From the NCBI GenBank assembly GCA_015227615.1, contig JAALGZ010000006.1, positions 744,001 through 808,000 on the forward strand: DNA of 64,000 nt, read 5' to 3'. Both the position numbers and the translations under genes were made by a program. Under the pieces are notes generated by a model that saw nothing but the letters and a program-made list of their open reading frames with translations, was not told the DNA's origin and searched no databases. This DNA is from Labyrinthula sp. Ha. Taxonomy: Eukaryota; Sar; Bigyra; Labyrinthulida; Labyrinthulaceae. This document shows positions 38,401-64,000 of this stretch, one piece after another. The first letter of the stretch is position 1; each line of letters starts with the position of its first letter.

Positions 38401-38694
38401 AGGTATCTTTTAAACTTTCCGAAATATCATGTAGGTTTAATTGATTCAATTAGTTCTGTTCCGACGATGGCCAGTGATTAGAGGAAGCTTGACTTTGTTG
38501 CGTAGTATAGAACTGGACCACCTTGGCAGTAGGTAATAGTTACCTGTTTCTAAACTGCCACCCCTTCTGCTCAACCCTAGCCGAAAGAGTAAAGACCTTA
38601 GAATAGGATAAGAGCTACAACCTCAAACGAATTAAAATGAGAAGGTATCTACTCGAAAATTAGAAGTCAGATTTAGTTGTGTTTGTACGAAACT

Positions 38695-39119
38695 TTGTCA
38701 GTCGACGAGTGACTAACCGAAGATAACTAAATCGAAGGAAAAGTGACCCCTTAAACTCGGTCACAACAAATTCCTTTAAAGAAGTGTTTCTTTCGTTCTA
38801 AACGATGCTTAGGATACTTCACACTCGCGAAGTAAGCTAACCTAAGACTTTCCGAAGGTTTTCCTTTGTCTTGATCAGATAACTGTAACTATAGCTAAGT
38901 ATTCGAACTCTCAAATACAATAGTTACTTTTTATCTTCTCTTGGTTTTGTGTTAATTAGTTATGTCTTAATTTCCCAAAATATCACATACAATCTAACCT
39001 ATTATTTATCCTAGAAAAAGCACCTAAAACTATGGGTACTTTAATTGAAATTCAATTACCTACATTCTACAATAATTAAATAGCACAAGTCTCTAAAGTA
39101 AATCACAAGAACTTACACA
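38695..39119 (-). repeat. 3' LTR of the element
   Basis: On the minus strand it starts TGTGTAAG and ends CTGACAA, directly followed by the target duplication AGTTT. It matches 48149-48572 with about ten differences. Confidence 0.9.
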
Positions 39120-39137
39120 TCCCCCTCCTCTTCTTCT
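39120..39137 (-). other. Polypurine tract
   Basis: On the minus strand, AGAAGAAGAGGAGGGGGA directly abuts the 3' LTR, where the plus-strand primer of LTR elements is expected. It fixes the LTR boundary. Confidence 0.8.
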
Positions 39138-39149
39138 AAAAGGCTATTC

Positions 39150-40140
39150 ACTAGCCTTTTCGTTAGGTAATCCTTTAGGGACGAAACATCCAAATGCTTT
39201 GTCTGAAACTAAAGGATCGACCTCTAATCCAATCTGAATCCACCCGGACTTCAGATTAGCACATCTAGCAAATAGTTCCACCTTAAGATGCCGATTATCA
39301 AAGACCTTTCCAAACATTTCATATACCTTTCGAGGCTTTACACCTTCCACTAGGCGATCTGCAAAGATTGCCTTTTCCTTTCTAAGTCCTTCTACTTTTT
39401 CCACTACTAGAGAGGAAGTGCATTCCTTTCTCTTTACAAAAATCAATAAAGACTCTGCCGAGTGCTGGAAATAATAGCCTAATGATGCTCTTATTCTACC
39501 ACTCGGTGCCAGTTTTACCCATTCGATGATATGAACTAAGTCATATCCCTTTTCAAACATACTATCTAAGGTTAAAGCGAGCGTTCGCTCCACTACCCAA
39601 ATTGCTACAAAAGAAGCTTTAAGAGCTTCGAAATTCAAATTTAGTACCTGAGAATCAGGTTTTCGTACATAAGGAACTCTCAATCATCTGATTTGGTTTT
39701 CCTGTCCAATTGCCCAAGGAGGATCCATTAATAATAAATCCACCTTATCCCCGGGCCATTCCGTCAAAATTTCCGACTTATATAAGTCTGCAGTAAACCA
39801 AAGTTTATCCCGAGGCGGGACACAAATCCTTGTCCAAAAAGGATTTCCTTCAAAACCAACCAAACATAAATTGTCACAAAGATGTTTAAACGTAAAAGTT
39901 TGTTCACGCCTAAATCCTGCGACAAGACTTCCCCCAGACAACTCGCACTCCACTGGAGTAACAAGTATTCCTTCAATTTCTGAAACCAATTCTTTAGGGT
40001 ATTCTTTGTCCAAGACTTCGTGTAGGTACCCCTTACGACTTAGTTCTAGTGAGTATAAGAGATACGTACATTTCATCCCAGCTCTCGAAATACCAGTTGC
40101 ATAAAGTTTAATGAAACGATCTTCACAAATTTTAACCATC
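39150..40140 (-). mobile_element. MT-A70-family adenine methyltransferase part of the LTR element
   Basis: This part lies between the integrase/chromodomain/SANT part and the 3' LTR on the same strand. It has the catalytic motif DPPW preceded by hydrophobic LLLM, as in MT-A70 (METTL3/METTL14/METTL4 and Ime4-type) N6-adenine methyltransferases. Downstream are family-like segments: SAESLLIFVKRK, a charged VKPRKVYEMF and KVELFAR followed by SGWIQIGLE. The DPPW sequence is the SAM and adenine-binding signature of the family. Whether the ancestral enzyme acted on DNA or RNA cannot be read here. I know of cytosine methyltransferases captured by retroelements in some protists, but not of this arrangement. 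This copy is broken. Confidence 0.82.
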
Positions 40141-40339
40141 GTCTCAACCTCTTTTTTCTTTCGTTCGAAAGCATTCCTATACGTTTAACTAACTCCTTCC
40201 GGACAAGTCTCTTTCAAAAATGTCTTCGCCGAACTCAGCGAATCCACTCTCCTACTAAACCCCAATTCCTTCAAAGAAAACCTTTCATAGGTTTCTTTTC
40301 CAGAATTAATATCGATGAACTGACCCCTCAGAGGTGCCA

Positions 40340-42100
40340 AATCCCTTCTTTGAAGTCTCCGTTGCAAATACGAGTAAACCATTGCCTTAGACTTATAAGG
40401 CATATACTTCGCAAATTCACTAAAACTTCCCATTCCAAATTTAAGAATCAAATTCCGAAGTAACTCATGATCCTCTTTCTTCCAGCCTGACACAAAATCT
40501 CTCCTAACTGGGAGAGCTCTCCACAAACTGGTGTCTTCCTTATCCTTCAAGTAATGCAACAAACTCGGTCGGAACCTTCCAACCCATGCTGCGTTAACTT
40601 CTATAGCAAACTTCCGATCAAGCCACTGCTGAGCTTGCCTCCGAAGTTGCTTCTTTCTAATCGAAACCCGTTTTTCCGATAAAAACTTAAGAACAAGTTC
40701 CTTAACATCCCGATACATGGTAAGCAACGGCTCCCATGTATCATCTATAGGTTCAAATCCCCTCCATCGAACTCTCACAAGGTACTCGCCTTTAGAGTAT
40801 CGAACCTCAAGGAATTTTTGAACCTCCAACTCTTCCCAATTATTGATAAAGACCTTCCGAAGTGCATCATCCGGCACAAAGCCATCCCGTTCATAGAAGT
40901 ATAAACGACTTCCATGCACAATTTGGGTCTCCCCATTCAACAATCTTACTTTGTACACGTTAGATGAGAGCAACTCAATCACATTAACCAGTCCTGACCA
41001 AATTAACTTTGCTTTGTTGTTCTCCCTAGGTGTATTCTTCGAACTTAATAAACACCAATCGCCAGGTACATACTGAATACATGCCTTATCGACTCGCTTC
41101 TGGCGTTTATTCCAATAATCATTCCTTCTTTTCTTCATGAGCGATACATAACCAGCCACCTGACTATGCATTTCCTCTAGCTCACGGCGAGACTCCTTTG
41201 ACAAGCGGTATAAAATGTCTTTATCGACATTAATTACGCCTTCTCTTCCCCCTATTTTCCGAAAAACGACTTTGGGACAAGCTTCCGTTTCGATATATTC
41301 CTTAGAAGGATCCGTATTTAAGAACAAAAGGTTGGCACTAGGGGCTTCCTTCATACCAGGGAGTTTCCTACTAGGCAACCGAATCTCATTAACTGCAGTC
41401 ATCACTGACTCAATCACATCCGGCCATTGATCCCATTTTAATCTCAACTCTGAGACCAAACTTCGCAAGAAACTTAAAACCTTTCGACGAACTATTTCCA
41501 CCTCACCATTAGTCCAACTAGAATAACTTACCGCGCAATTATGCGTAAATCGAACCTCCTTCTGTAACAGTTCTAACAAACTATTGGCAAAATGAGAACT
41601 TCTATCAGTAACTAGAGTGAACTCTGCCTCCAATCTCCAATAAGTATGAAACTAACTTAGAGCCATAACCACTGTTACAGCGTCCACTTTAGGTGTACAA
41701 TGAAGAAAGCAGAATCAAAAAAAAAGCATCGGTAATCACTAAGATATAACCCTTGGTGTTAACATACAAAAAGTCAGCTACAAGAACCTCCTTAGGCCTT
41801 CTAGCTTCCGTGACTATTCTCAAATTCGTCTTTATCAGTTTCGGGACTCTATTACATTGTATGCAATTGGCTCTTAAACCAAACATCACCGTTTCCGCCG
41901 AAACCTTTTCACCATAACTAGGTGGCACCTTCCACTTGAAACGCCGTACCTCTGCAACATCCTGGATCCTAGACCCGTGCCTATTAGCCAGATGAATGTG
42001 CACCAATTGACGCTCAAACAACGATTGGGGAATAATCACTCTCCACTCCTCTTCCGAAATCTTTAGTCCATCGCCCAGAGACTCCTGTTTCTGAGCATTT
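40340..42100 (-). mobile_element. Integrase, chromodomain and Myb/SANT-like parts of the LTR element
   Basis: The integrase zinc-binding region (HIHLANRHG, CIQC, about 41.85-42.03 kb) is followed by the core, with acidic positions in VLVADFLYV and VTDRSSHF and a later Glu in TNGEVE. A chromodomain sits at about 40.69-40.83 kb (VRWRGFEPIDDTWEP, the typical aromatic and W-E-P pattern). A Myb/SANT-like helix bundle follows at about 40.35-40.49 kb (WKKEDHELLRNLILKFG). Chromodomains steer chromovirus integration to marked chromatin. The extra SANT-like domain may add DNA or histone binding. Broken. Confidence 0.8.
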
Positions 42101-42849
42101 AACAATTCCCTTTCAGAAATCCTCTCCTACGAGCCCTCGTAGTAAGGATTAAAACTCGAGATACGATCCTTGTCTAAGGCTTGTATTCTTTCAAACGTTA
42201 GCTTTTCTTTCTGTTTTTTAGGAGACAGACGCAACTCCGAGGCAATAATGTCGATACCAACTCTAGGTACCTCCATTTTGACTTCCTTCTGCATAGTAGC
42301 TTCCGATTTCATACGCTGAGATGAAACCCAACTACTAATTTCTTCTAACGACACGGCCGACTCGGTATCTACCATGGCCAGTCTACTATATTCTTCCTCT
42401 AGATCAGGATTCTCAACCTTAATCTCAAGTCCCCCATCGGGACGCAATCCGTATGAAAATCTTTCCTCTAAGTACCAGGGATCATACAGTCCTTCACTCG
42501 AAGAACTACTTTCTAAATACTTATTCTGTAGAGGATGCCATTTCCCAACGAGACCTTTTCCAACTTCCCGGGGATGTTTAAACATCTTCCGGAAGTATTT
42601 CTTTTCTTTTGAAGTCAGGGAAACTTGAGGTCCCAGAGAGACATCTGACCCAGATCTCTCACGGCGTAACGCCGCCCTCATTATTCTTACTGCTTCAATC
42701 CTATGTTTTTCCTTTTCCGGCGTTATCGCCCATCGAGAAAGCATGTCTGCAAAGACGTTATCTTCCCCTTTGACATGATGCAACTCCACATCTGCCTGCT
42801 GCAAGGTTAAGACCCATCTTTGCAATCTATTCAAGTGGCCGTGGTTGAT

Positions 42850-44150
42850 CTTAGATCCCCCCCTTTATAATGGCCCTTAGGTTCAAATGATCCGTGTACA
42901 CCTGAATTGGTGTAGGGTGAAACGGAAGCAAGTATAATAACCTACTAAAAGTCTTTACTATTGGGTATAGTTCCTTGTGCACAATGTCCCATCTAACCTG
43001 AGAATCCTGAAACTTCCCAGCAAAGAACATCATAGGAACCACCCTCTTTTCTAACAATTTCTTATTCCTTTCTGACGAATCGGCTTGCATCAGAATCGAA
43101 CTGAAGAACATGCCAGAAGCATCTGTTATCAACAAAAGATCCTGGGTTCTATCGTACAGACTCAATTTCTGTTTAGCCGCGACACTAATCGTCTTAACGA
43201 ATTTCCTAAAGGCAGCTGTCAACTCAGCTGTCCATGAAATCCTTTCATTTTTCCTTTTCAATTCCGATTTTTTACCCCTCATTTCAGGGTAAAATTCCAT
43301 AATAACACTTCTCAACTCAGCTAACTCTGGGATTGCCAAAGATAACCACTGAGACAAGTGCATCATTGATGCCAATTGATAGATATATTCCGGTCTTGGC
43401 ACATCCAAGATCCGTGAAGAGTACTCCTTCCTAAATTCCATTTGCCATTTGCCACCTTTCGGCCGCAATATACTATTTCCTTAGCAAAAATGATCGATTT
43501 AGCTGGGCTAATCCGAACTCTTGCTTTCCTCAAATTTCTCAACAAAGTTTCCAATAGCTTCAGATATTCCCCGAAGTCGTCCGCATAAAGCAAACTATCA
43601 TCGATCCATTGAATGACTCCATTCCTTGGACGATTGACCAATCTTTCCCCCACCACTTCATCTACCATCCTCTGATGGAAGAATACTGGGGTACTATGAT
43701 ATCCCATATGTGCAAATTGAAGTTGGAAAGTACCATGCTCCGATACAATGTTAAAGTATTTCTTTGCTTCTTCAGTCATCCCTAACTAATCAAAGCCCGA
43801 AACCACATCAAAACTGCCATAATACTTGCAACCTGCAAGATTATTAAAACAAGCCTCTAAATGCGGGAGTTCATTAGCATCCCTCCTAAGTATCTTGTTA
43901 ACATCAACAAGATCGACAACCATTCGTAACTTATTGCCTTTCTTTGGTACCGCAAATACCATCGAGCCGACCTCGGCAGATTTAACCTTGGTGACCAATC
44001 CTCTTTCTGCCATACTTAGCAGCTTATCTCTAATGAAGTTCGGCTTCTCAGCCGACATCGGTCGCACCCTTGGGTACGAAAAGTCAAATACTTCCAGTGG
44101 ATACACTGGCATTGGCGTTAAGCCACTAATCTTTGTCTGCGTATGATCAG
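42850..44150 (-). mobile_element. Reverse transcriptase and RNase H parts of the LTR element
   Basis: RT segments include VFAVPKKGNKLRMVVDL and YYGSFDVVSGFD, then the catalytic YADD box. RNase H follows with LLLITDASG and VYTDHLNLRAI. The order and motifs are those of Ty3/gypsy. Broken. Confidence 0.85.
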
Positions 44151-45119
44151 TCGCAAAGACATCCCAATACTTCAAACATAACTTCCTCAATGAGATTCTC
44201 ATCTCCTCCGAGGCCTCTGATCGGTCTATCATCTCATGGATAGCCTGTTTTATCATAGGTTCCTCATCCTCAATACTTAGGTCTCCCTCCACCTCTCGAA
44301 GAAGGTTATCCATTAGATTATCATCAGCGATGTCCTCGACATGGCGACGTAATTTAATTATTTCTCCGAAGTCTATCCCTTCGAAGTTCCCTGAATTTAT
44401 TCGCTCAACTAAATCGAGATTCCCTACTGAGCTATAAATTCGTGTCGGTGGTATCTGTATAGCGGATGAGCCGACGTTGAATGACTTGGTTCTTTCCCTT
44501 CGTCCGTCATCTAAGACTCCATCACATGCGGAGTACAAAACCGCTGTAGAACATCCCCGATCGTCCTCGTTGGATAGGCGTCTACTTTCCGTGAGGCTCT
44601 CACAGTGTGATTGCCTCGCGTCAATGAATCGGACCTCGAAATATCTATCTAGATTCATTGAGGTTTTTTGGCACGTTGCCGACCGAGATTTGAGGGTAAA
44701 TTGAAATGGCGCCATCCTGCAGTGATTTAGCCATCAGTATCAACCGCTCCACCTCCCCGACCGCACCATGGGGTACCAATTGCACATTCTTGTGCCTTTG
44801 TCTCTTGACCTGAGACCCTCTAACCCTTTTTCCTACAACAAGATACCATCTAACCGACTTTAGATTCCTTTCCGATTCCCAATGTAGTACTCTTACTAAC
44901 TCTAGTAATTTGTACGCCTTAGACACTAAGTAACTTATTACTACTTTAAACATTGAAGGTTGTACACAAATGAATACTACATTAGGCCAATTACAGATCT
45001 CTAATCTACTCTCTAACCACAAAGCACTATTGACATACTTATAAACAATGAGAGTTGAGATCTTTTCTTGTACTTGGCCCACCAGGTGGTCAGCCTGGCT
45101 GCCGATTTCCTACCCGAGA

Positions 45120-48050
45120 CCCAAATTTTGAATGGGGTCTAACCCCATCTTCCTCAACTCGGGTCTTCCAATCAGAAAGCTTGGCCAATCCTGTGATTGC
45201 ACCAACACAACCTTTGCTCTAGGGCAAGATCTACTTTCTATACCATTCACTTTCACGAGCAGCCCCATATGTCCTACGGCAAGAACATTAACCGGAGCAT
45301 CATTAGCCACATGAACTCTTCCTTTAGCACTCGAATAGCTATCAAGCAAATCCTTGTGCTTCCACCAACTTCCGACTGTGACCTCTGCTCCGCTATCAAA
45401 TTTAGCATCGCCGACCACATCTCCTTTTGTTGTGCATATTTCATACCCTTCGTCAAAATTTCGAAATTGGTCTAACTTCCCAACATGCACATCGATTGTA
45501 ACATACTCCTCAGTACCCTCGATCATTGGATCGTAATCTTCAGGCACCATGGCCTTCACAGTTTCCAACTCCTTTTTTCCGGAAGGAGCTGCCAGAGCTA
45601 GAACTTTACTACCTCTGAACCCCGAACGCGGGTCCGCTCCATCAGGAGAGACCTTTCCTGCATTCATCATTCTTGCCTTAACAATGGCAGAATGCTTAAG
45701 GGACGTATTCCCACGATCCATCTTGTAGTCTGTTCTACCTTCCGGATCACCCGCTTGGCGATTAAACATCCTATTGATGAATTCCTGCACTTGGCGAGTC
45801 CTTAAAACGTCCCCTTCCACCGCCTTAAGTCTCTTCTCATCATCCTTCTTGATCACCACGGCCGCAAACATAACGCAGTCATGCATACCGTGCCCATGAT
45901 TCTTGCAATACGCACAGGATCTACGGGTAGACCAAGAGATTTCCGAGTACCAGACATCATGAAAGGCTTTTTCCTTATTAATGACCTTAACACTAGGTCC
46001 CGTTATGTTAACCGGCATGGGCCCCGACGCCTGAGGATAAGGGGTAAACCCAGCAACTTGGTTAACTAGAGAAGACCTAACCTTACTTACAGTAGGCGTT
46101 TTCATTCTCTTTTCCTTTAATCTTGTTCCTGTTTCTGAAACCTGTCCCGTCGATGCACCTACCCCTCTATCCAATGCAAATTGACGTTGAGCTTCAAGAA
46201 GGTTCTGTAAAGCATCGATTGACTTAAGGGGATTTTCAGTTTTCCGTACCTTCGCTCGGATCGCCTCCTTAGACAACCCGAAACTAGCCGGCACCTTTCT
46301 TGGTATTTCAAACAAAAGTTCAATGAGTGCCTCCTCACCAATCCGATCCGTGAAACCTGGATCGATCTTAGAATTGACATTCATCATGTAAGTCTGAAAC
46401 CTCTCCCTGCTATCCCCCAAACCAGGGTATTTAACTTCCTTAAGAAGCCGCATGGGATCCTGGCGATTTTCAGCCTTACCTTTTTCATAATAATCTTTAA
46501 GGGAGTAGAAAACCGTTTCCCTTTCACTTTCATTCCTACAAAATCTCTCCAGAAGCTTCTCGTGAATAAAACGACGAGACTGGAATGATGGCTCCAAAAT
46601 CATCTGTTCCCCAACAAGATTAAGCCATTGACCAAGCTTCTGCATATCGAGAGATTCCAAGATATCAATTTTTGGCATCAAATGCCTTGCTCCCACACCA
46701 TGAGCTGCATGAGTGGACCTAGTTTGTGACATCATATTAACTAAATCACGCAAAGAACTAACCTCAGCCCTTAGCGTTTCCACGTAATTACGATTGTCAC
46801 CCAACATCCCGTGAATCTCACGATTACGGAATCTTCTTTGTTCGATTTCCTGATGCAATTCTTTTTGTACATTTCCTAGTTGATCCGACAGCCACGGCAA
46901 GTACGAAGATACCGCCTGCGAGTTAACATAGTTAATGGTTACAAACCTCTTCAACTCTTCAGTGTTTGGATCCTGAGGTTGAATGGTATCGAACATTCCT
47001 ATGTTTACCTTTGCAGCCTCACCGGCTGCGTGCACATCTAGGACTTCCCCATCCACCCTCTCGGGCAGATCCAAACCAGGAAGGCCCTCGTGCCCTTCAT
47101 TAACTTCTTTGCTCCTAAGAGCCAACAGAGTTTTGCTCTGGGCAACTCTAGCCCGTTCATACAGTAGCCTCATCGAGGCAAACAGCTTCCTTTTCTCTTG
47201 AGGATCAAGAGCATCATATTCTCTTAATCCTCTTTCCACAATTTTCTTTTCTACTAGAGAACCAGCCGCATTCCCGCTGGTAGGATCGTGTAAACTCTGA
47301 GTTATATCCTTGTACAACTCATTCAATGATGCAGTGTTCCTCACGGAACCTGCTGCCGAATGACTCCCTACTTCGACTCCAGCCACGTAATCAAGGGACC
47401 CTTCTGAAGTAGTTCGCTTACTAATAGTCAGACCCTGACGAACTCTCTGCTTACGGTAAGCAAGAATTTTACGATCATCATCAAAAATCTGATCGAGATC
47501 TTGCTCGTAACCTAGGGTCACCTTCTTGGAGTGCTCCTCCATGTCACGGTCAATTGTGCCATGGCTGCCCTCATCATCACTGCCCCTTGATTGACTACTT
47601 GTTTCCGCTCTCGAGGCTTGCGTGGCCGTAGCAACCAAGGTTTCCGGAATCCCCCTTTCACCGTCATCGGCTTCCAAGGTCTTCTTTCTGGGAGCTGAGG
47701 TGCCGATATCCACAGTCGAAGTCGCAAGGATTTCAACTTCATCGACCACTCCTTCGTTAGCCGTCGCCTTTACAGGCTTCGACTTCTTAGCAACTGACTT
47801 CACAGTCTTCGAAGTTGCTTTCCGTTTTTTCTTTGCAAGTTAGGTCTTAGATCCGACCTTTCCTGCTTTCCTAGTTTTCTTAACCGGTTCCCCTCCATCC
47901 TGAGGTTCCCCTGTTCCTACGGTTGCTATTTGAGTAGGCTTCTCAACTGAGTGTTCAAGCTCGTTTTCCCCCTCAGCTGTGTCCACCGACAACTGCCGAT
48001 CCTTAGGATTTGATGTCCGTAAGATTTCCATCAAATCCTCGTCACTGACC
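45120..48050 (-). mobile_element. Gag and protease parts of the LTR element
   Basis: The gag is long, with a charged N-terminal part rich in Lys, Glu and Thr. A CCHC zinc knuckle (CAYCKNHGHGMHDC, spacing CX2CX4HX4C) lies near 45.87-45.92 kb. An aspartic protease motif follows (DSGAEVTVGSW) near 45.36 kb. It belongs to the broken element. Confidence 0.8.
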
Positions 48051-48148
48051 GGGCTCGGTCTCTTCGCCGATCGTGTGACCCTAGAGGATCCTCCTTTCTT
48101 TTCAACCGTTCTGTTCGATAAGTATCTTCTAACGTTTGTTATAACAAT

Positions 48149-48572
48149 TTGTCAGTCGACGGATGACTAACCGAAGATAACTAAATCGAAGGAAAAGTGA
48201 CCCCTAAACTCGGTCACAACAAATTCCTTTAAAGAACTGTTTCCTTCGTTCTAAACGATGCTTAGGATACTTCACACTCGCGAAGTAAGCGAACCTAAGA
48301 CTTTCCGAAGGTTTTCCTTTGTTTTGATCAGATAACTGTAACTATAGCTAAGTATTCGAACTCTCAAATACAATAGTTACTTTTTATCTTCTCTTGGTTT
48401 TGTGTTAATTAGTTATGTCTTAATTTCCCAAAATATCACATACAATCTAACCTATTATTTATCCTAGAAAAAGCACCTAAAACTATGGGTACTTTAATTG
48501 AAATTCAATTACCTACATTCTATAATAATTAAATAGCACAAGTCTCTAAAGTAAATTACAAGAACTTACCCA
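48149..48572 (-). repeat. 5' LTR of the element
   Basis: On the minus strand it starts TGGGTAAG after target duplication AGTTT and ends CTGACAA. The sequence directly inside does not begin with TGG, the usual start of a tRNA primer site. Priming may therefore be non-canonical, or the site may be set further in. Confidence 0.9.
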
Positions 48573-49006
48573 AAACTGAAAAAGGAAGAAAATCAAATGG
48601 AAGAAGTCCATGCAAAGCTAAGGTAGTTTAAATTAAAAAAAAAACATCCAAGAAGCAAAAACTCCTCAAGAATTGAACAACTAAGAAGAGAAATGAAATT
48701 ATATGAAGTTTTTTGTCAACTTAAGAATTGAAATCTGTAACTAAGTGAAAGGTTTATCTTATATTATAGTTTATAAGCGTCAAGTTGGAAATACTCGTAT
48801 TTGTTATACTTATTTGTTTCACATAGACTAATCGACAGACAAAGAAGTGACTATTTTGCACCCACTGCCAAGATCCTGAGGAGAAGTTAACTCTAACCGT
48901 AAACATTTTACTCTGTATAAATCAGAAAGAGATCATTCCAATAAAAATTAGCTTTTAGATAACTCATCTGTAAAACTAAAATCGGGTAAATACAAACTTG
49001 AATACA

Positions 49007-59362: not shown

Positions 59363-61897
59363 CTACACGAGAAGTTGCTGATCAGTTCCTGATCTTCCTA
59401 AATTGGAATCCAAGTCCTTATTGTACTTTTTCCTTAGGTTGAAGTTCAACGCATCTCTTCCATTCACCATGGCCCATTGAAGAATTTTCTCAAAACCCTG
59501 GCTAACCTTCCGCGGATCAACTCGAGTATAGAAATCATGAAGTTCCTTCCTCAAATTTTCTTCCTCTAGCATAAAATTGCTCAAACTTTCCCCGTACTTC
59601 TTCTGAAGTTCGCTATCAAGGTTTTCTTCTCCATTTCTTTTTGCCCATTCAAAAACTTTGTCAACTTGATCCTCAGCAAGAACCATTGGATCATACTTAA
59701 CATAGTAACTCTTTAGCTTTTCTAAGAAATCACGTGGTAGATCTATCTGATGAAACTGCTTCATCTGAGGGCTGCTATTCTGCCCTCTTCTTGCAGATTG
59801 ACGCACTCTAGAGGTTGCTTGAGAGTGGCTATCCTCCCATTCATCCTCATCTCCAAAGTTATTCAAAGTTTCCCCATATTTCATATATAATTTTGTGTTC
59901 AAGGCGTCAATTCCATGTTTCTTATGATACTTGGTCATAGCAGTCACAGCCTTATCTATATTCTCTGGAGATTCATGCTTATTCACAAACTGCAGCAACC
60001 TAAATTGAAACTCTTCGTGAGTAAGGTCTGCAGAGGTACTTACAGGTATTTTGTCAAAATTTTCAAGATTCACCATATACTTATTTTTCAACTTTTTATT
60101 TAACTCTGAGATTCCGTCGTTCTTCGTAAATTCGAGCATAATATCAAGCGCATTTTCAAACCTGTTGGGTTCAAATCTCCTCAAGAACTTCTTTAGCCTA
60201 GCTTCAAACTGATCCCTAAGTTTGGGGTCATCAAGATCATCAGTCGTCAACCTAAATTGACGCGTGGAGTTAGCCGGGGTACTTACTGCTGATCTTCCAG
60301 GACTTTGCAAACCTTTCACTCTTGGTCTAGAAACTCGTTGCCTTTGTTTTCTATTAGCTGAGTTTCTAGCAGATGCTCTGGACGTTTTTCTTACAGTTTG
60401 TTTCCTCTTCAGCTCTTCATTAATATCAACAGTTTGCATACGAGGCCTTGACTGCTGTGGAGAAGATACAGGCATCAATTTTTGTGGATTGATGTTCAAA
60501 TTTTGCATCTGATTTTGCAAAGTATCTTGAACAACACTTTGCACGGTTGACCTCCCCTCTTCGTTGTTACCAAAAAGCGGCTGGTTGAGCATTTGCAAAT
60601 CATTCCCGTACTTTTTCTTCAATTCTTCATTTAGTTGCTCATCCGAAACACTATCCAGAGTTTTACCGTAATTAGCTTTCAAATTCTTATTTAGTGCTCC
60701 TAATCCCTTGTTCTCAATGAACTTCATCATCAAAAACATTCCTCTTGAAACAAGTTCCGGATCATTCACTAATAGAAACCTAGTCAGCTTGTCCATCTTC
60801 TTCCTCGTTTCCGGATCTTTAGTAGCAGCAAGCCTTCTACTTAACAAAATCTGACTCTCTCTCTGAGCACGTGCATTCTCTCTCCTCTTCGCTAAATCTT
60901 CACTTTGAACTTTTTCCAGATCTCGTAAATTCTTTCCGTATTTCTTTTTCAAGTTTACGTTCAACTCTCCTTCTCCATGCTCCATCGTCCACTCAACAAG
61001 GTAACCTATCCCTTTCTTTAACTTACTAGGTTCTACTTGCATGTAAAAAGTTCTAAGTCTATCATATAATTCATATCTCTCACCTATATTATCTTCCATT
61101 CCGTCGAACATTGGATTCTCCCCAACAACTGAAGAAAAGGCCCGAGACCTGAACAAATTTTTCTTAACATCTGGTCTTAGCGCAACGCTAGAGGTTTTCA
61201 GTACATTTGGCAACTCCACATTATCTTCTGAGCGAGATCCGACACTCGCACTTTCCATATTCCTTTGCTGCGTTCTAGCTTTCGATCTCTGCCTAGTAAG
61301 TCCAAGATAAGGCGAAGGAGGAGGCGCAGGTGAAGCAACACCTTCATAAGTAGTATAGTCTGTTAATTTCTGCGGTTTTTTTCCTTCCATAGCCCTTTGC
61401 TGCTGCGGAGATGTCAAAAGTTCTGTCAAACCAGTCTCTCTAACCTCAGAATGGTTGTCTCTCTGCTTAGTCCTCCTTCCTCTTGTTTTCCCATGCGCCT
61501 TCCTAGCAGCTGGCGATTTTGGACGATTCTGCGAACTGTCTCCAAGAAACTTTCTTTTCAATTCGCTGTTTCTTCTATTCTTTAGTGCTTGATAACTTCT
61601 TGTTGCTGCTTTTTTTCTAACTGCTTTCATTGTCGCTCTACTTTCCTTTAGGACCTTATAGGCGAGATCTACGTACCTTTCCTTCGCCTGATCTTTCGTT
61701 AATCCTTTGAAGGAATTCCAGGCCTCCCATTTTTGCACTGTGATTATCTTAGTATCAATCGGTTCACTGCGTTTGCAATCTCCCCTCTTTGCTTGGTTAA
61801 ACAGTCCGTATAGTGCTAACTTGTCTTCCAATTCTACTGGAGCTCGGTTTGTCATTATTTTGCTGAATGCCCTGTCAAAATCCTTATTAAGAGACAT
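59363..61897 (-). CDS. Acyl-CoA-binding protein with six C-terminal repeats
   Basis: An intronless gene of 844 aa. Residues about 6-85 are an acyl-CoA-binding (ACBP) domain: LALYGLFNQAKRGDC, KWEAWNSFKGL and AKERYVDLAYKVL. Residues 90-250 are basic and low-complexity (Lys/Arg/Ser/Gln). Six copies of a roughly 50-residue repeat follow at about 277-328, 366-416 (with an extra half unit at 418-437), 567-616, 632-682, 726-776 and 786-832. The consensus is L-x2-F/Y-x5-DP/EP, a helix, W/F-x4-G-x3-LN-x2-L-x-KYG-x2-L. Another basic linker lies at about 495-545. The repeat resembles the short KYG-ending repeats found in many protist cytoskeletal proteins, but I cannot name it. There is no membrane span. 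It may tether acyl-CoA or lipid metabolism to a scaffold. Confidence 0.8.
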   Translation of the reverse strand: MSLNKDFDRAFSKIMTNRAPVELEDKLALYGLFNQAKRGDCKRSEPIDTKIITVQKWEAWNSFKGLTKDQAKERYVDLAYKVLKESRATMKAVRKKAATRSYQALKNRRNSELKRKFLGDSSQNRPKSPAARKAHGKTRGRRTKQRDNHSEVRETGLTELLTSPQQQRAMEGKKPQKLTDYTTYEGVASPAPPPSPYLGLTRQRSKARTQQRNMESASVGSRSEDNVELPNVLKTSSVALRPDVKKNLFRSRAFSSVVGENPMFDGMEDNIGERYELYDRLRTFYMQVEPSKLKKGIGYLVEWTMEHGEGELNVNLKKKYGKNLRDLEKVQSEDLAKRRENARAQRESQILLSRRLAATKDPETRKKMDKLTRFLLVNDPELVSRGMFLMMKFIENKGLGALNKNLKANYGKTLDSVSDEQLNEELKKKYGNDLQMLNQPLFGNNEEGRSTVQSVVQDTLQNQMQNLNINPQKLMPVSSPQQSRPRMQTVDINEELKRKQTVRKTSRASARNSANRKQRQRVSRPRVKGLQSPGRSAVSTPANSTRQFRLTTDDLDDPKLRDQFEARLKKFLRRFEPNRFENALDIMLEFTKNDGISELNKKLKNKYMVNLENFDKIPVSTSADLTHEEFQFRLLQFVNKHESPENIDKAVTAMTKYHKKHGIDALNTKLYMKYGETLNNFGDEDEWEDSHSQATSRVRQSARRGQNSSPQMKQFHQIDLPRDFLEKLKSYYVKYDPMVLAEDQVDKVFEWAKRNGEENLDSELQKKYGESLSNFMLEEENLRKELHDFYTRVDPRKVSQGFEKILQWAMVNGRDALNFNLRKKYNKDLDSNLGRSGTDQQLLV

Positions 61898-64000
61898 GGA
61901 GATTATCTGATGTTTATGAAAATATTAAAAAGTTCAAGTTTGGAAAGGTTTTTGAGGAATAAAGTCGTCGCTAGGTCCTATTTTCCAGTGTTTGTATTTT
62001 TAGTGCTGATTGTGTCTCTGAAAATATAGTGTTTTGGTTCAGTACCTTTTTTGAAATTTGAAGTAGCTGATTTTTTTATAAGTATTATATGATAAATAAA
62101 TTATTGGCGAGAAAACGATGAGATACTTTTGTACAGATAAACCCGATTAAAATACAATAAAGAACTAAAGAGCATGTTATATTTTGTTTGTTTTTTTTGC
62201 AAGAGATTAAACTTTATTCGTCTTTAAAAAAACAAATCTTTCTTTTAAGGTTTTTATTGGGAGATGTGGTAGTCTTTTTTTTAAATTATTCTTGTGGTTA
62301 AGCATTTGCTTAGATCAAGAATAATATTACCTCAACCAAGTGCATGATTAGAGGCTGATTAAGTAAAAGCACTTCAGCTTGTAGGAATCAGCTATGGGGA
62401 ACAATCCTCAAGTTTGAATTCTTCCCCTTTTGTTGTACTCTTGAGAAAAAGGTAACGTGGTCTTGTTTATTGTTGTAATATTAACTCATTTGGAAACTTC
62501 TTGAAGCCTAGAATTCAACTAATGCCAATAAATTCTCTTTGTTCGGGAATGTCGTTTCAATATTCCCGTACTGTCCCGTTAAAACAGCTGTCCAGGCTCG
62601 GAAAGAGGCTCAACTCTTCGTTAATGTCTGTCCCGGTTAGGATTCTATCGAAAAGTAGGCAATTATTATACAAATAATAGGATAAGATAATCAATGCAAT
62701 TGGCCTCAACTATGAAGAAAGATATAAAGGGAAAACACTAAATAGAAAATCACACTTGGATTCTTGTCTTTCTTCTACGTTTACTCGGATTTTTCTATCG
62801 CCAGGAGCAGCTACTTTTCCATATATGTTGATAACATTTCATTTGTGTTCTGTGGACTTTTTCATCGGGTCACGCATTGAAAGATAATTCTATGCCTGCT
62901 CAATCTTCGAAACAACATAGCATTCCAACATATTTGGAGTCTTTTTGGAACCAATGCTGAACACGTAGCGATGAAGTTGCAGCTCACAAAGTCTTATACA
63001 ACGATGCCCCATCTTCAACTAATGCAGAAGTTAGCTTTTGGATTCGATGTTGAGCAAATAGTATTGTGCTGCTAGGTTCCTTTAAAGTCTTTTCGCACCG
63101 AATAATACTGGAAGTACCTCAAATCGGTGTTTTTTAGAAGTAGAAACACAGAACGCAATAAGGAAAACTTGTGTTAGAAAATTCTGCTTAATAACTACGT
63201 TGAACTAGCTGCTCCATATTCATAGTGATATCACACATCTTTTTGCCAAAATAAACATCAAATCTTTTTCTTTAAAAAGAAATGCAGGAAAATTTTTCTT
63301 GGAAATTATAGGATAAGTATTCACTGTCTGAGCCAATGTATTCTTAGTTTGTGACGTAGCTCGGTTGCCCGGGGAAACCCCACAACTAAGAACTTACCAT
63401 CACATTGAAACTCTAAGTTATTTAAAAATGGAGCCAAAAGGGGAAAGAGGATGGTTTTGAAAATAGTTAGTCTCTATCACTCTAATAAAGTACAAGTTTC
63501 CCTGATAGTTCTTTATGCTCGACATGATCTCGTGCTGCTAGTTCTAGTTGAAGCACACTACATTTTCCACAGTTCCTTTTCTTAAAGGCGAATAATTATT
63601 CCATAACCAGATATGTTTCATAAAAAGGATCTTGTGTATGAACATTATTTCTTTGTAACTACAGGTTTAGCAATTATACTCGAACGCGAACATAATAGGA
63701 CTGGTTAATATGAAAACAGACTTCTAGCTCCTAGAGTTGCTCTCGTTACTAATAAGACAGTTCTCTAAGTTATTTTCCATAGCAGACTGGCTTAATTTCC
63801 AAATTTCTTGGAGATATAATAGAACATATTATGACCTTCCAAACTAGTTATTATTTTATGCCTTTTGCGCTAACAGTTCAAACGCAGTTTATCATACCAA
63901 CTCTTATTCTTGATTTCAGACATGGCGCTTCTAGTTTTTAGAATAAATAAAGTTAAACGCTCTACATTAGTTTCCCCGGTATCCCTATTTCAGATACAGG
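61898..64000. other. Gene-free AT-rich region
   Basis: The first 100-200 bp presumably contain the promoter of the ACBP-repeat gene. I see no gene, transposon end or RNA gene in the rest. Confidence 0.45.

Follow-up and report, generated by a model that had tools for sequence, protein, structure and literature searches.

LTR retrotransposons with a putative MTA1-type MT-A70 adenine methyltransferase domain in Labyrinthula sp. Ha

Introduction

Can an LTR retroelement possess a eukaryotic adenine methyltransferase of the MT-A70 class as one of its own domains, or is such a domain a host gene that was inserted into one element only? This question is raised by a locus of Labyrinthula sp. Ha, located in a stretch of 64,000 nucleotides (G000:C110:744001-808000 in our numbering) which in the following will be referred to as the window. 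The initial annotation had described there an MT-A70 domain between the integrase/chromodomain part of a chromovirus-like element and its 3' LTR. As for known enzymes of this class, MTA1 of Tetrahymena is a writer of N6-methyladenine (6mA) in DNA, and METTL14 and MTA9 are the partner subunits of METTL3-type and MTA1-type enzymes.

Results

Anatomy of the window copy

The PF05063 profile of the MT-A70 family matched the minus strand of the window at 39147-39683 with an E-value of 8.1e-16 (58.9 bits, cut-off 23.9), which confirmed the described position, and the DPPW motif claimed for the domain was present (Table 1). The surrounding sequence is a degraded LTR retroelement on the minus strand (38695-48572), whose LTR pair carries a 5-bp repeat, AAACT/AGTTT, outside both LTRs. 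Thus, the domain indeed lies on the strand of the element and inside its target duplication. The LTR boundaries were taken from a scripted search, which also gave shorter alternatives.

The order of domains is gag, reverse transcriptase (RT), RNase H, integrase, chromodomain, Myb, MT-A70 and 3' LTR. The gag ORF was named by its position because the Pfam scan of this ORF gave no gag match, and the protease identity of the DSGA segment at its end is putative because no protease match was obtained in the Pfam scan of this segment. Regarding the RT, RVT_1 matched at 43363-43785 with 1.9e-6 and 28.2 bits, slightly below the cut-off of 29.6. The copy is disrupted by multiple stops and frameshifts, with ORF breaks throughout pol. 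Its methyltransferase region is 49% identical (245 bits) to the domain of L035, another element of the same genome.

Table 1. Features of the retroelement in the window, and location of the late DSGA segment in copies of two families
Feature	Position	Strand	Remarks
Target-site duplication, 5' side of element, AGTTT (element orientation)	48573..48577	.	
5' LTR	48148..48572	-	97.7% identity to 3' LTR across 426 columns
gag ORF, 909 aa	45110..47839	-	named by position
DSGA aspartic-protease-like segment, gag end	45113..45478	-	motif reading
Reverse transcriptase, broken pieces, box WIDD in place of YxDD	43363..44733	-	RVT_1
RNase H	42866..43153	-	RT_RNaseH 2.1e-11, above Pfam cut-off
Integrase region, broken pieces	40827..42126	-	ORF reading; weak Integrase_p58_C match below cut-off
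Chromodomain	40683..40826	-	Chromo 23.1 bits, slightly below cut-off 25.1
Myb/SANT-like DNA-binding domain	40356..40484	-	26.1 and 28.9 bits (two scans), cut-off 24.4
In-frame TAA, pol/methyltransferase boundary, window copy	40185..40187	-	
MT-A70 (MTA1-type) region, one TGA interrupting	39147..40184	-	profile and alignment
Catalytic motif DPPW	39714..39725	-	same frame as PF05063 match, just upstream of it
TGA within methyltransferase domain, window copy	39684..39686	-	
3' LTR	38695..39119	-	
Target-site duplication, 3' side of element	38690..38694	.	
Late DSGA segment	L012:1487-1864, L026:1487-1864		polyprotein, just before methyltransferase

Spread of the domain in the genome

The assembly of 50.84 Mb (153 contigs) was searched with PF05063, giving 354 candidates, of which the best 150 were scored and all 150 exceeded the cut-off. 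These matches were merged with those of the host MTA1 (122 scored), the human METTL3 domain and the L035 domain, and with the window locus, so that at least 254 MT-A70 places were obtained after removal of overlaps; one of them is the host MTA1 gene and a few may be fragments of one broken copy. A search for RNase H (PF17919) gave 352 candidates, again with the best 150 scored. At least 115 of the 254 places have a listed RNase H 1.5-6 kb upstream on the same strand, as compared with 0/254 on the opposite strand and 3/254 downstream on the same strand among the matches listed.

Seen from the RNase H side, among the best 150 of the 352 loci a listed MT-A70 domain follows downstream in none of the 12 top-scoring loci and in 114 of the 138 others. 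One of the top 12 (L048, L049) was inspected; its RT is of the YADD type, and reading the ORFs downstream by eye showed no methyltransferase. As to the 24 remaining loci without a listed domain, three lie, by our reading of the coordinates, too close to a contig end, where the methyltransferase would fall off the contig. A further insight is given by L046 (G000:C117:27400-29400), also one of the 24, which holds a degraded methyltransferase with DPPW changed to DLSG and a PF05063 score of 16.8 bits, below the cut-off; this methyltransferase appears to be dead. The family of L046 is kin to the window family in its RT and gave a weak Myb match.

The search for other carriers proposed along with the first description thus recovered many LTR elements with the domain in an equivalent position. 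The domain is neither confined to one member nor a host gene inserted once, the latter being excluded by the at least 115 of 254 places with an upstream RNase H; a chance occurrence of the DPPW motif is excluded by the profile E-values and the many loci.

In addition, pairs of nearly equal methyltransferase matches on one strand were seen about 7 kb apart (G000:C132:835172/842412, C62:563456/570271 and C1:1636119/1643108), which suggests tandem copies, perhaps with a shared LTR.

Complete copies

To describe complete elements, 20 stretches of up to 10 kb around the best-scoring PF05063 loci were taken. One of them was the host gene L016. LTR pairs were found in all 19 element loci (80.9-99.8% identical), two stretches being cut by contig ends. 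Target duplications of 4 bp were located at the same LTR boundary (TGT...ATA ends) in 13 of the 19 loci, 11 from the script and two (L014, L028) read off the flank printout. The LTRs with up to 99.8% identity show that the spread of some families is recent. On different contigs, L024 and L026 have an identical printed 5' flank and a differing 3' flank, a pattern that could reflect a duplicated region, a haplotig or recombination.

In four loci gag, pol and methyltransferase form a single frame (2278, 2333, 2333 and 2358 aa) with MT-A70 at the end. Pfam scans of three of these four polyproteins placed MT-A70 last in each, behind RT, RNase H, integrase and chromo in this succession; the integrase match (rve) was above the cut-off in two of the three. 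It is important to add that the chromo matches of the window protein and the three polyproteins ranged from 17.2 to 23.1 bits, all below the cut-off of 25.1.

The RT box reads W[IL]DD in the window, in L047 and in 11 methyltransferase-bearing lineages (including L012, L026, L043, L037 and L041), as compared to YADD in the comparison element L049. Families A (L012) and B (L026, L028) each have a single DSGA motif, which follows the integrase and is flanked by the Myb-like region on one side and the methyltransferase on the other; the best protease models of Pfam match weakly here, at 0.0004-0.009, below the cut-off. The Myb-like region of family A matched PF00249 weakly (0.00037, below the cut-off), and the Pfam scan of this region in family B gave no Myb match. 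No Pfam match to a tyrosine recombinase or to a Dam-like methyltransferase was obtained in the proteins scanned. A DIRS element is excluded, since the proteins scanned give no tyrosine recombinase match and have integrase and MT-A70 instead.

Type of the methyltransferase

The host gene L016 (G000:C91:220293-221273; L016:8327-9307) encodes 327 aa and has no LTR pair. With 249.6 bits against Tetrahymena MTA1 and 126.8 against METTL3, it is, judged by these scores, the host's own MTA1 orthologue. It lies near an ORF read as pantothenate synthetase. The METTL3 query of the genome gave nothing closer than L016 (43%) among the matches listed, so that no METTL3 gene was seen, one that introns could hide.

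Comparison of seven lineages with solved structures of MTA1, METTL3, METTL14 and METTL4 gave Tetrahymena MTA1 as top match in all seven. The bits of the best MTA1 chain and the best METTL3 chain were 134.7/105.3 in L012, 129.6/85.1 in L029, 126.7/79.6 in L030, 119.0/67.0 in L032, 124.4/62.0 in L033 and 82.1/30.9 in L035, with a near tie in family B (L028, 111.1/108.8). In addition, the catalytic motif is followed by P[TV]RG in every aligned lineage, with single-copy deviations in L018 (PTCG) and in the window copy (QIR, then stop). The corresponding stretch of MTA1 reads P[ST]RG; METTL3 is devoid of the P-x-R-G segment, and the letters are absent from the six phage and plasmid rows compared.

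In a tree whose rows did not include AMT2/5 or AMT6/7, the domains of eukaryotes and retroelements were separate from the six phage and plasmid rows (support 99/93), and a bacterial origin of the domain is excluded by this separation. The order inside the group was unsettled, with a clade of retroelements plus MTA1 at p-AU 0.31 and the retroelements alone at p-AU 0.065. The initial annotation had asked for a placement against METTL3, METTL14 and METTL4; nearest by score is the DNA-directed MTA1/AMT1 type. Thus, it is by these scores and the common stretch, and not by the branching of the tree, that the METHYLTRANSFERASE of the elements is putatively assigned to the MTA1 type.

The element domains are mostly 29-41% identical to the host MTA1. 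No relatives of the host MTA1 were found in prokaryotic genomes and viral contigs, and none in viral contigs with the methyltransferase of L030 and the RT of L041 as queries. The family-A methyltransferase query gave seven viral loci; DPPW was readable in two of them, neither of which had the P-x-R-G stretch, and scanning for the first motif match per ORF gave no W[IL]DD box in the seven.

Shared history of reverse transcriptase and methyltransferase

RT and methyltransferase sequences were taken from the same element in 11 lineages. Identity values of the two domains are correlated across these lineages (Mantel r 0.925, p 0.0001; Spearman 0.514, p 0.0002). Of the eight splits, six occur in both trees; after relabelling (50 trees), the mean number of shared splits was 0.46 and the largest was 4. 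The methyltransferase topology is not rejected by the RT alignment (p-AU 0.446), but the RT topology in its exact form is rejected by the methyltransferase alignment, at p-AU 0.008 and with a difference of 12.2 log units; the two disagree at RT nodes with supports of 35 and 48. RT identity among the deep lineages is 25-37% among the values listed. The simplest reading would be that the domain was already present in the common ancestor of these lineages, and a later exchange of the methyltransferase in one lineage is possible.

Selection and catalytic motif

Close copies were compared by dN/dS, as in distant pairs synonymous sites are saturated or nearly so. For the methyltransferase, values of 0.112, 0.079, 0.144 and 0.193 were obtained in close family-A pairs, 0.225 for L009-L010 and 0.327 for L026-L028, this last value being based on only 9 changes. 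Four close pairs with RT data gave 0.048, 0.137, 0.078 and 0.062. At the sequence level, the methyltransferases of close copies in family A and its sister A' are thus shown to be under purifying selection (0.08-0.23). Altogether, the equivalent position in divergent families, the polyprotein fusion in open copies and the purifying selection bear out the earlier attribution of the domain to the element.

Among 29 retroelement domains from non-randomly chosen loci (27 plus the window and L046), the catalytic motif reads DPPW in 13, DPAW in 14, DLPF in one (L036) and DLSG in one. DPAW was found in 14/14 loci seen of families A and A', and family A has young copies; this points either to tolerated catalysis or to service as a partner subunit, as with METTL14 and MTA9. 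Apart from these loci, 40 places were drawn at random from the 225 outside the loci read earlier, and the first 20 were used. Here, DPPW was found in 14, DPPY in two and other motifs in four (NSPW, DPPR, DPPG, DPHW), that is DPP[WY] in 16/20; the true share in the genome may be lower because the pool excludes the 14 earlier family-A loci. A P[TVI][RK]G stretch adjoined the catalytic motif in all 20. Across nine diverse rows including the host MTA1, 19 columns are invariant, among them D, the first P and W of the motif, R-G of the stretch, and K-P, F, R and N, some of which presumably line the SAM pocket in METTL3.

Discussion

Proposed function and alternatives

We propose that a retrotransposon clade with LTRs, a chromodomain and an RT of the W[IL]DD type may have acquired an MTA1/AMT1-type MT-A70 enzyme early, as the C-terminal domain of the polyprotein, and would have kept it through deep divergence. 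In the DPP[WY] families, the domain would methylate adenine at N6 in cDNA of the element itself or in its freshly integrated DNA, with the chromodomain and the adjacent Myb-like domain possibly guiding it. The 6mA written in this way would copy the AMT1 mark of the host, which is associated with permissive chromatin in other eukaryotes, and new copies could thereby escape silencing. Families with an altered motif (DPAW) may have reduced catalysis or bind nucleic acid as partners of an active MTA1. Derived from sequence comparison, this explanation as a whole, early acquisition together with self-marking by 6mA, has in our judgement slightly less than an even chance of being right. The more specific view of an element that would carry a 6mA writer, a chromodomain reader and a Myb-like domain to stamp a permissive mark on fresh copies, with some families as inactive partners, is put forward more tentatively. 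According to a recent survey, AMT1-dependent 6mA accompanies transcriptionally permissive chromatin; the same survey describes transposable elements without 6mA enrichment in its species, which counts against our explanation (PMC12695648). Further points against it are the altered motifs (DPAW in family A despite its young copies, DLPF in L036, DLSG in L046), the near tie of family B between MTA1 and METTL3, the tree in which retroelements and MTA1 do not separate out as one clade, and the rejection of the exact RT topology by the methyltransferase alignment.

Alternatively, the domain could write m6A on the element's own RNA and affect its export, translation, packaging or recognition. MT-A70 includes METTL3, the METTL3 score of family B nearly equals that of MTA1, and a polyprotein domain packaged with the genomic RNA would presumably meet RNA first. 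However, MTA1 scores 29 to 62 bits above METTL3 in the other 6/7 lineages and shares with the elements the P-x-R-G stretch that is absent in METTL3, so we regard an RNA writer as rather unlikely. A similarly low likelihood is given to a mostly non-catalytic domain, which as a nucleic-acid-binding or heterodimer subunit would recruit or block the host MTA1 on element DNA. Such a role would fit family A, where DPAW is uniform, yet dN/dS is low and LTRs are nearly identical; it would also fit the dead version in L046 and the inactive partners with which AMT1 and METTL3 are reported to operate (PMC12695648). Retention of DPP[WY] in most sampled loci outside the earlier family-A loci and the 19 invariant columns argue against it.

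Much less probable is a domain directed at competing DNA or host genes, in defence or to reprogram the host methylome, as has been suggested for transposon-borne methylases generally (PMC6338049), since the gag-pol fusion would put the domain with the element's own particle. Finally, host MTA1 sequence may have been captured by chance and copied along as a neutral passenger. The broken window copy would agree with this, but the largely common history of RT and methyltransferase over lineages only 25-37% identical in RT, the purifying selection and the methyltransferase downstream of 114/138 RNase H loci outside the top 12, among the matches listed, make it barely credible.

Relation to known systems

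Self-marking of element DNA by an MTA1-type enzyme, as we prefer to read these elements, can be compared with several known systems. With the AMT1/MTA1 family itself, the elements share PF05063, DPPW, the P[ST]RG-type stretch and the top structure match in all seven lineages; unlike in this family, their domain is part of a retrotransposon polyprotein, occurs at many places in one genome and has altered motifs in some families. In DIRS elements, too, RT and RNase H are followed by an adenine methyltransferase (PMC3266345, PMC5890265), but there a tyrosine recombinase is combined with a bacterial Dam-like enzyme, whereas the elements described here combine a eukaryotic MT-A70 domain with LTR pairs, target duplications, an integrase and a chromodomain-like stretch. 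A host-type DNA methyltransferase on a retrotransposon is also described for KnitGypsy-Dnmt3, where it is located in the Pol polyprotein and under purifying selection, and for the LINE/DIRS-Dnmt elements of Symbiodinium (PMC5890265). These enzymes are cytosine DNMTs unrelated to MT-A70, in contrast to the adenine type found here, which, from the agreement of RT and methyltransferase, was probably already carried by the ancestor of many deep lineages.

Ty3/gypsy chromoviruses have LTRs and the same order of RT, RNase H, integrase and chromodomain-like stretch; they differ by a YxDD/FxDD RT box instead of W[IL]DD, by a protease between gag and RT, whereas the sole DSGA motif of families A and B follows the integrase, and by lacking the additional Myb-like and MT-A70 domains. 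In Ectocarpus, Sola1 with ParB and an N4C/N6A methyltransferase is a further case of a transposon-borne enzyme thought to modify its own DNA, although it is a DNA transposon and the enzyme is of prokaryotic type, encoded by a separate gene on the opposite strand (PMC12477816).

The claim that such an element was undescribed holds in part. A full-text search, judged on titles and abstract openings and with most subscription journals, Repbase and preprints outside its scope, found no literature on MT-A70 in LTR elements; adenine methyltransferases in retroelements are already known from DIRS with its Dam-like enzyme (PMC5890265, PMC3266345). As far as searched, the enzyme class in LTR elements and the breadth of the clade are thus new. 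Eukaryotic MT-A70 families are described as relatively static compared to DNMTs in the recent survey (PMC12695648). Here, one genome of 51 Mb contains at least about 250 MT-A70 places, at least 115 of them tied to the RNase H of an element, and some families moved recently. MT-A70 gene counts in protist genomes may consequently include transposons. Should the domains write 6mA, a retrotransposon would be using an adenine DNA methyltransferase of eukaryotic type, and the genome would provide intact, altered and dead variants as a natural set for testing the effect of 6mA on chromatin and silencing.

Elsewhere in the window, an ORF of 853 aa at 59363-61924 contains repeated units of the L-x-KKYG type.
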